Source: Thermoproteota archaeon (lineage in GTDB: Archaea; Thermoproteota; Thermoprotei_A; Sulfolobales; Pyrodictiaceae). Taken from it: DNA of 34,035 nucleotides. The position numbers and the translations under genes are program-made. This document shows, piece by piece, positions 27,443-29,914 of the stretch (its first letter is position 1; every line of letters begins with the position of its first letter). Under the pieces are notes generated by a model that saw only the letters and a program-made list of their open reading frames with translations, searched no databases and was not told the DNA's origin. The stretch spans positions 1 through 34,035 of the forward strand of contig JAADEY010000038.1 of the NCBI GenBank assembly GCA_013153145.1, in the 5' to 3' direction.

Positions 27443-27895
27443 TCACTCTCCACACACCACGTCAGCCCTCATGAGTATGACTGCTGCTAAAAACCATGCA
27501 TACAGCCTCACACCCCCAACAACTGCAAGGGGTGCAGGCAGCCGTATGCAGTCACAGCACTCCCGGAGCGCCTCGGTGTGGCTGCAGCACCCCTCAGTGT
27601 CTAGGGGCTTGTTCCTTGCAAGTTCTACGCCGGGCACCTTGCCGTAGAGTATTGCGCGGCGTATAAGCCCGGTGCATGACTCCTCGTCCATGCGTAGCCC
27701 GCGCAGCCTCCAGGGCTTAAACACGGCCAGGTATCCATCACTGAACCTGTTTACTAGCAGTACGTCCCTCCTAATACTGTTTGAGAGCAGTAGAGTATAT
27801 GATGCGACCCTGCAGAGCCCGAGAATCTTCCAGGGTGTAAGGGGTACCAGGGGCTCCATCCATTCAACGAGTACGGTTCTACTGTAGCGGGCCAA
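27443..27895 (-). CDS. TrmY-like protein (possible tRNA pseudouridine-54 N1-methyltransferase), shortened
   Basis: The N-terminal half resembles TrmY (COG1901/DUF358): LGLCRVASYTLLLSNSIRRD corresponds to the TrmY pattern of a leucine/cysteine/arginine helix followed by SHDIRRDV, and LRMDEESCTGLIRRAI matches the SPDE...IKKAL segment. TrmY is a SPOUT methylase that converts pseudouridine 54 to its N1-methyl form. At 150 residues this protein is about 45 shorter than typical TrmY, and the usual GDH-type SAM knot loop is not evident in the cysteine-rich C-terminal part (EGCCSHTEALRECCDCIRLP), so activity is uncertain. TTG 27895 overlaps srp54 by 17 bp; ATG 27859 would cut the matching N-terminus. 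Next gene is pus10, which makes its would-be substrate. Confidence 0.55.
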   Translation of the reverse strand: MARYSRTVLVEWMEPLVPLTPWKILGLCRVASYTLLLSNSIRRDVLLVNRFSDGYLAVFKPWRLRGLRMDEESCTGLIRRAILYGKVPGVELARNKPLDTEGCCSHTEALRECCDCIRLPAPLAVVGGVRLYAWFLAAVILMRADVVCGE

Positions 27896-29240
27896 GCTTC
27901 TTCAACACCTTCTCGGCGAAGTCCTTCCTCTTCCTAAGCTGGCGTAGGAACTTCTCAAGCGTCTTATAGTAGTTCATGAGGTCCTTCACGTCGCTCAGCT
28001 CAACTCCAGCGCCTATCGCTATCCTACGCATCCTCGACTTGTCTATTATCGATGGATTGTCCAGCTCCTCGTAGGTCATAGAGTTTATTGCTGCTATCCA
28101 CTTGTCTATCTTCTTCTCACCTAGCTTGGCAACCTTGTCGACAGAGTCAACCATCAACCCCATCCCGGGGAGCATCTGTATTATCTTCCTCAACGGGCCG
28201 AGCTTCCTGAGCTGTATGAGTTGCTGATATATTATCCTCATGTTTAGTTTTCCTTCCAGTATCTGGCGGACCGACTTCTCAAGCTCCTTCTCGGAGGTTA
28301 CTCTCTCTATGCGCTCCAGCAGGCCCTCTATATCGCCTATACCCATTATCCTTGCAACGAACCTCTTCGGCTTGAATACCTCGATCTCAGTGACGTCCTC
28401 GCCGGTGCCTATGAACTTTATCTGTGCGCCGGTGGCGGCGACGGCTGAGAGCGCGCCGCCTCCCTTAGCGGTGCCATCCATCTTGGTGACTATTATGCTC
28501 CCTATGGGCGTGTACTCGTGAAACCTCTTCGCGAGATCATAGCTCTTCTGGCCCATGGCGGCGTCTATGACCAGCATGACCTCGTCTGGGTCTATTGCCT
28601 CGGATATCTTCTTCATCTCGTCTAGGAGTGACTGTTCCTCGCCGTAGCCGTGCCTGCCGGCGGTATCGACTATTATCACCTCGGCGCCCATGTCTTTGAG
28701 CCTCTCTACACCCCTCCTCGCTATCCCCACTGCATCCTTCTCCCCGGGTTCACCGTAGAACATTGCACCGACCCTGGTGGCTAGCTGTTTGAGCTGCTCA
28801 TATGCTCCCGGACGGTAGGTGTCTGCGGCTACAAGTCCCACCCTGTAGCCCTCCATCCTGTAGTAGTAGGCCAGCTTGGCGGCGGTTGTGGTCTTGCCGC
28901 TTCCCTGCACTCCTACGAGCATTATCACGTATGGTGTGTGGTCCGGCTTTACTTCGGGCTCCTTGTCGCCTCCGAACATCTCTACGAGTTTATCGTAGGT
29001 TATCTTTATCAGCCAGTCCCTCCTCGAGACACCCGGCGGCGGCCTCTCCTTTAAAGCCTTCTCCTTGATCTCCTTGGTGAGCTTGAACACGAGCCTTACG
29101 TTGACATCGGCGCTCAGCAGTGCCCGCTGCAGCTCCCTTATGAACTCCCTAACCAGCTGCTCGTAGCTCCCCTCCCCCTTCACCAGCCTCCTCACAGCCC
29201 TGCGTATGTCGTCGAGGCCCGGCAGCCTAACCCCCTCCAG
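27879..29240 (-). CDS. srp54: signal recognition particle GTPase SRP54; start codon non-canonical or truncated
   Basis: SRP54 binds signal peptides and 7S RNA and, through its GTPase, docks ribosomes to the FtsY receptor at the membrane. N domain (ELQRALLSADVNVRLVFKLT), G domain with P-loop GVQGSGKTTTAAKL, DTAGRHGYGEEQ, TKMDGTAKGGGALSA and a methionine-rich M domain (LPGMGLMVDSVDKVAKLGEK) are all present. The first ordinary start is GTG 29195 (438 aa), but the frame continues upstream with LEGVRLPGLDDIRRAVRRLV, matching the conserved SRP54 N-terminal helix. That extension has no ATG, GTG or TTG before the stop; CTG 29238-29240 is the likely initiator (453 aa). Confidence 0.93.
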   Translation of the reverse strand: MEGVRLPGLDDIRRAVRRLVKGEGSYEQLVREFIRELQRALLSADVNVRLVFKLTKEIKEKALKERPPPGVSRRDWLIKITYDKLVEMFGGDKEPEVKPDHTPYVIMLVGVQGSGKTTTAAKLAYYYRMEGYRVGLVAADTYRPGAYEQLKQLATRVGAMFYGEPGEKDAVGIARRGVERLKDMGAEVIIVDTAGRHGYGEEQSLLDEMKKISEAIDPDEVMLVIDAAMGQKSYDLAKRFHEYTPIGSIIVTKMDGTAKGGGALSAVAATGAQIKFIGTGEDVTEIEVFKPKRFVARIMGIGDIEGLLERIERVTSEKELEKSVRQILEGKLNMRIIYQQLIQLRKLGPLRKIIQMLPGMGLMVDSVDKVAKLGEKKIDKWIAAINSMTYEELDNPSIIDKSRMRRIAIGAGVELSDVKDLMNYYKTLEKFLRQLRKRKDFAEKVLKKLGPLQ

Positions 29241-29307: not shown

Positions 29308-29318
29308 CTTTATAAAAG
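29308..29318 (+). promoter_or_regulatory. TATA box of the NusA-like gene
   Basis: CTTTATAAAAG, the strongest TATA match in the window, with a purine-rich element just upstream. Transcription is predicted near 29335-29342, giving a leader of about 50 nt before the conserved coding start at 29390. Confidence 0.75.
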
Positions 29319-29389
29319 CGCTGCATAGTCTCCTGCACCATAGCAAGTGATGCAGTGAGCAAGCGTGAGGAAGGGCGAGGTGGTGCGCC

Positions 29390-29914
29390 ACGGTAAACAT
29401 ACCACTTGACTACATATGCGTCAAGAGCGGCGTTCTCTGCCCGAGGTGCCAGAGCCTCGTCGACAGTGGGAAGGTCGACCCACGTGAGGTCGACATAATG
29501 AGGGAGCTGATAAAGCTAGAGGAGTCGGGGATGCATGTACTGAAGAACGCGACATACTACAAGACATACTTCATAGACTCCGACATGGCTATAATAGTGA
29601 TCGACCTAGGCGTCGGCAGCAGCGTGCCAATATACACCAAGAACGCGAAGCCGATAGAGCACAAGCTCGGACAGGCACTCGGAATGAGGGTGAAGCTGAT
29701 CCCACGAACCGGCGACATAAGAAGCCTGGCAATGCACCTACTCTACCCCGCAAGGCTGCTGGGAGTCAACACGCTCTGGCTGCCGGACGGCAGCATAGAG
29801 TACGTTGTCAGGGTGAATAGGAGGGATAGGAGGATCATAGAGCCCCGCAGGGAGCTCTATGAGCGCATCCTCGGGGAGCTCGCCGGCAAGAAGGTAAGGA
29901 TAAGGTTCGAGTAA
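29390..29914 (+). CDS. NusA-like KH-domain protein with N-terminal zinc-knuckle; start codon ACG or frameshifted
   Basis: An archaeal NusA-related protein thought to act in transcription elongation/termination or RNA binding. Full conserved product (174 aa) starts VNIPLDYICVKSGVLCPRCQ, with Cys10, Cys17 and Cys20 as likely metal ligands, then two KH-like modules (IIVIDLGVGSSVPIYTKNAK; LLGVNTLWLPDGSIEYVVRV) and ends GKKVRIRFE. The first ordinary in-frame start is ATG 29498, which would delete the cysteine motif. In the conserved frame only ACG 29390-29392 sits properly, 7 nt after GAGGTG (29377-29382). Alternatively, one extra base near 29386-29391 separates it from GTG 29380/29383. Confidence 0.8.
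   Translation, partial: TVNIPLDYICVKSGVLCPRCQSLVDSGKVDPREVDIMRELIKLEESGMHVLKNATYYKTYFIDSDMAIIVIDLGVGSSVPIYTKNAKPIEHKLGQALGMRVKLIPRTGDIRSLAMHLLYPARLLGVNTLWLPDGSIEYVVRVNRRDRRIIEPRRELYERILGELAGKKVRIRFE

Follow-up and report, generated by a model that had tools for sequence, protein, structure and literature searches.

The window analyzed here, a stretch of 34,035 nucleotides, is contig 41 of a 47-contig genome whose nearest named relatives are Pyrodictiaceae, Hyperthermus, and Pyrodictium. It encodes a NusA2-type protein, divergently arranged with an SRP54 gene. Below, f1 is the window's own family and f2 to f11 are other families of the same order. The features of the NusA2 locus are as follows.

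29308 to 29318, forward strand: TATA-like promoter element (TTTATAAAA at about 29309 to 29317), read from the sequence, which implies a leader of about 50 nt
29366 to 29368, forward strand: in-frame stop codon TGA, read from the sequence, the upstream limit of the NusA2 frame
29377 to 29382, forward strand: Shine-Dalgarno sequence GAGGTG, 7 nt before the ACG, in a conserved leader block
29390 to 29392, forward strand: ACG, the proposed non-canonical start codon (TCG in 10 of the 14 family homologues), from the codon pattern and the constant Shine-Dalgarno spacing
29390 to 29914, forward strand: putative extent, from ACG to TAA, of the NusA2-type gene (NusA-like, with a KH domain)
29393 to 29395, forward strand: GTA, codon 2 (Val), the rival start; most other families have their canonical start in this column
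29498 to 29500, forward strand: first in-frame ATG of the NusA2 gene, a Met inside the conserved protein and not its start; the preceding codons are conserved in all relatives

After the TGA, the NusA2 frame reads GGA AGG GCG AGG TGG TGC GCC ACG GTA AAC ATA CCA CTT GAC, and the earliest ATG, GTG, or TTG in it is the ATG at 29498, where the longest ORF with such a start begins. The GTGs at 29380 and 29383 lie in a different frame. The original prediction had noted this missing start codon together with the Shine-Dalgarno sequence, the ACG, the two out-of-frame GTGs, and the TATA-like element; all were found as described, and the lack of a canonical start between this site and the conserved coding sequence extends to all 14 homologues of f1, more than chance would explain. 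The divergent SRP54 gene (27879 to 29225, reverse strand) also seems to be without a canonical start. In its start region (29225 to 29223) the window has CTG (AGG CTG CCG GGC CTC GAC), compared with ATG, GTG, or TTG in the other genomes of the family, and its first canonical codon, GTG at 29195, falls within the conserved N-terminus. As this CTG is private to the window genome, it may be either a CTG start or an assembly error.

The NusA2 protein matched the NCBIfam profile NF005013 (NusA-like) over positions 1 to 162 of 166 (E = 7.1e-46), its 156 bits falling short of the curated cut-off (175), and gave a weak KH_5 match. Residues 2 to 173 matched the solved Sulfolobus NusA2 structures (PDB 9fjl and 9f9u; E = 1.9e-44 for 9fjl), with 42 to 43% identity. 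An AlphaFold2 model, built from 12 window and locus proteins, had a mean pLDDT of 92.8, and its first 36 residues were predicted as well as the remainder. The best fold matches of the model were again 9f9u and 9fjl (TM-score 0.87 to 0.88; E = 1.3e-19 for 9f9u), that is, the solved NusA2 fold. These were followed by chains of the eukaryotic 40S subunit, with TM-scores of about 0.5 and E values down to 1e-9, which we take to be eS7 from the chain names. The Pfam profile Ribosomal_S7e scored 13.0 bits on the NusA2 protein, a weak match well below its cut-off of 33.5. The modeled fold makes NusA2 a possible archaeal relative of eS7, a relation of fold in which we claim no membership of the eS7 family.

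Across f1, the position of the window's ACG was occupied by TCG in 10 homologues and by ACG in four, the window included (14 of 14, from 6 genera); these genomes share descent and are not 14 independent observations, and most are metagenome-assembled or without a species name. Two of them (G002 and G010) carry an additional in-frame GTG or ATG further upstream and keep both the Shine-Dalgarno sequence and the NCG codon, as we refer to TCG and ACG at this site. The codon that follows was always Val, as GTA, GTC, or GTT and never GTG. Because 14 genomes cannot share a sequencing error, and because four of them are single contigs (G003, G007, G009, and G011), errors of sequencing and of assembly are excluded as the origin of the NCG site. 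The extra base that had been considered, as a private frameshift, a programmed +1 shift, or a sequencing error, is likewise unsupported given the same arrangement in 13 other genomes.

Outside f1, three other families have ACG followed by GTT or GTA: f10 in all three of its genomes, f8 in a single genome (G142), and f6 in one genus (G100, G101, and G102), where G101 has an additional ATG two codons before the ACG. The sister family f4 has ATG GTG or TTG GTG with the ATG or TTG exactly at the NCG codon. Most other families, including f2, f3, f5, f9, and f11, start with ATG, TTG, or GTG one codon later, in the column of the window's GTA at 29393; in f11, G057 and G048 have the context AAG ATG. 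Where this Val column is canonical the preceding codon is arbitrary, and where it is GTA, GTC, or GTT with no adjacent canonical start the preceding codon is NCG, or ATA in three f8 genomes. Three genomes with ordinary starts two codons upstream (G058 and G059, with CTG, and G095) were left out of this count. The f8 homologues L025, L028, L044, and L195 (G045) have ATA at the NCG codon, followed by GTA, GTG, or GTC; G045 (ATA GTC), which has no canonical start in the open frame upstream, may use a different non-canonical start. On the protein tree, f1 with f4, f8 with f10, and the f6 genus fall apart, so there was more than one gain of NCG or more than one return to a canonical start.

The way in which the NCG codon varies was compared with the rest of the gene using Fitch counts on the tree of the 14 f1 genes, for which 173 ungapped codon columns were scored; as the sequences are related, no formal probability is given. 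Bases 1, 2, and 3 of the NCG column had 4, 0, and 0 changes, respectively, and those at the first base were between A and T only. This was the sole column of the 173 that joined several first-base changes with frozen second and third bases. Third-base changes averaged about 5 per column across the 14 genes, and only two columns had none, the NCG column and one Met codon. The Val column immediately after it had 4 third-base changes, free among A, C, and T and never to G, in genomes where GTG makes up 30 to 48% of Val codons. A plain Ser or Thr codon would not give the frozen CG, because TCG accounts for only 13 to 22% of Ser codons and ACG for 28 to 32% of Thr codons in these genomes. This pattern is what a start codon, but not a Ser or Thr codon, should show. 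Ordinary canonical starts vary in the same manner, their first base differing, with the same type of change, in 43 of 99 aligned ortholog pairs from two f1 genomes. From the Val codon onward, the f1 genes are under purifying selection.

The Shine-Dalgarno sequence at this site takes the forms GAGGTG and GGGGTGA in f1. The distance from GGTG to the NCG codon is 7 nt in 13 of the 14 genes and 8 nt in the other, this single nucleotide in the spacer being the only indel in f1 from the Shine-Dalgarno sequence into the coding frame; f10, the f6 genus, and G142 share the distance of 7 nt. For ordinary starts that were unambiguous and had 5 nt or more of Shine-Dalgarno match, counted separately in G001 and G003, GGTG was mostly 6 to 9 nt from the start codon (five starts at 6 nt, six at 7, seven at 8, four at 9, and three at 10), a usual range that includes the 7 nt seen here. 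A spacing of 7 to NCG fits best; a spacing of 10, to the GTN codon, is in the tail of the distribution and possible. Among 17 aligned homologues, conservation was limited to the Shine-Dalgarno sequence, the end of the spacer, and NCG-GT, and nothing was conserved upstream of the Shine-Dalgarno sequence. The same leader alignment contained no hairpin common to the family, no conserved RNA structure or binding site for feedback, and no TATA-like element conserved at the window's distance from the start. The TATA box and GAGGTG had together been taken to point exactly to the ACG. This holds for GAGGTG; the TATA box is not conserved in position, and from its location transcription would begin about 50 nt before the ACG, which supports a leadered mRNA.

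To see how unusual this arrangement is, 374 non-overlapping reciprocal best ortholog pairs from parts of two genomes (G003, 0 to 0.8 Mb; G001, 0.16 to 1.36 Mb) were screened after removal of overlapping ORFs (antisense shadow ORFs). In both genomes, NusA2 alone had well conserved coding sequence ahead of its first canonical start codon, in a screen that is blind to genes with a canonical codon among the first residues. The other candidates comprised short matches due to chance, a single weak antisense-like pair, and antisense of tRNA. A second screen, by Shine-Dalgarno sequence, returned the same single gene. The scanned stretches showed no unusual Met tRNA. ARAGORN reported several tRNA genes with intervening sequences of 0.5 to 1.5 kb in the G003 and G001 stretches (L088 to L187; e.g., Trp, Lys, and Ala in G001), which could be either genuine long introns or the result of false joining.

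From these observations we infer that NusA2 is probably translated from a non-canonical ACG or UCG start by initiator Met-tRNA, and that the start stays weak as a means of limiting or regulating NusA2. Of the options in the original prediction, ACG as initiator is thus the best supported, given the conserved NCG, its spacing, and its codon pattern. In the proposed mechanism, the near-perfect Shine-Dalgarno sequence would set the 30S subunit so that the codon 7 nt downstream, ACG in the window or UCG in most relatives, lies in the P site, where initiator Met-tRNA (anticodon CAU) would be accepted even though the second codon base is mismatched. The first base could be either A or U, by analogy with AUG and UUG, and the product would begin Met-Val-Asn/Gln-Ile-Pro-Leu-Asp-Tyr. 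Selection would keep initiation weak, so that NusA2 synthesis would be limited or regulated through the stringency of initiation, in the manner of bacterial infC with its AUU start. The avoidance of GTG at the next codon suggests selection for such a weak start. Feedback of the eS7-like NusA2 on its own start can be put forward as a hypothesis. Against the proposal, only one position of UCG would pair with the CAU anticodon, and to our knowledge UCG is not an established natural start codon. Direct initiation by Met-tRNAi, rescued by a strong Shine-Dalgarno sequence, is the most economical reading.

Of the alternatives, initiation one codon later, at Val, survives best and is still improbable. 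Here GUA, GUC, and GUU would be weak starts descended from the GUG start of related families. The canonical starts of f2, f3, f5, f9, and f11 do fall in this column, and the GGTG-to-start distances of the canonical families there are 8 to 12 nt, which includes 10. However, the third base switches freely between A, C, and T like that of an ordinary Val codon, the spacing of 10 is uncommon for these genomes, and the frozen NCG before the Val would be left unexplained.

Also improbable, and speculative, is that ACG and UCG are recognized by a dedicated step, either C-to-U editing or base modification of the mRNA in these hyperthermophiles, or mismatch-tolerant initiation sensed by the eS7-like NusA2; this would be a start-codon switch so far undescribed in archaea. 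Editing taken by itself, or an equivalent base modification, would turn ACG into AUG and UCG into UUG, and we consider it quite unlikely. In f1 and f10, a single C-to-U change would make AUG or UUG of each affected codon, the first base being only A or T. The ATA at the same codon in f8 does not fit, and plain mismatch initiation needs no extra machinery. We know of no mRNA editing of the C-to-U, start-making kind in archaea. Precedents exist in chloroplast rpl2, psbL, and ndhD (PMC9845219).

We give very little credence to the two remaining explanations. A programmed +1 shift from the GTG or ATG overlapping the Shine-Dalgarno sequence, or a frameshift error, could draw on the GTG at -10 in 13 of the 14 f1 genes, whose frame a +1 shift would correct; yet this GTG (29380 in the window, once considered a lost start) belongs to the Shine-Dalgarno sequence and is itself preceded by none, the genes share no slippery site, the window's frame hits a TGA after a few codons, and an error cannot be common to 14 genomes. 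The true start might instead be the internal ATG at 29498, which is conserved in all 14 f1 genes, or lie upstream via a spliced leader. In the window, TGAGGT precedes this ATG by 7 nt (29485 to 29500) and could mark an internal start; it is not conserved, the Glu codon there being GAA in most family homologues. Against an internal start, the 35 codons from GTA to ATG 29498 are conserved as amino acids with free third bases, and the same segment is present in the solved NusA2 structures, with Cys residues conserved across archaea; a start at ATG 29498 only was accordingly rejected. No relative was found to start at the equivalent of this ATG, and canonical starts outside the affected groups lie at or next to the GTA 29393 codon. 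A spliced leader finds no conserved possible exon upstream of the Shine-Dalgarno sequence.

If the proposed reading is true, a conserved UCG/ACG start would widen the natural start codons of archaea beyond AUG, GUG, and UUG, the set listed in a review of archaeal initiation (PMC7531240), and a second-base mismatch could persist through the evolution of a whole family. It would also single out NusA2, an eS7-like KH protein, as a weakly translated gene, which offers a clue to what it does. A practical consequence is that gene callers limited to ATG, GTG, and TTG trim the conserved, cysteine-bearing N-terminus off the protein. The annotation of Pyrodictium delaneyi has 45% ATG, 30% GTG, and 25% TTG starts (PMC5556600), and literature searches on archaeal ACG/UCG starts returned nothing on point.

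Several known systems resemble this one in part. The solved Sulfolobus NusA2 (9f9u and 9fjl) belongs to the same protein family and has the same fold, and its closest homologues here, those of f11, start at an ordinary ATG one column further on. In chloroplasts, rpl2, psbL, and ndhD likewise have ACG in the place of the start, which is edited C-to-U to AUG; NusA2 adds the UCG and ATA variants. Ribosomal protein L12ae of Staphylothermus marinus, for which an ATC start was proposed (PMC2678158), is also crenarchaeal, has a ribosomal function, and lacks ATG, GTG, or TTG, with its start inferred from alignment; that case concerns one genome and a third-base near-cognate, whereas NusA2 involves a whole family and a second-base mismatch. 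Bacterial infC, encoding IF3, starts with AUU (cited in PMC9845219) under translational autocontrol, and is likewise a gene of the expression machinery with a conserved sub-optimal start. In contrast to infC, NusA2 is archaeal, is not IF3, and has its mismatch at the second base (ACG/UCG) and not the third, and its autoregulation is a hypothesis.
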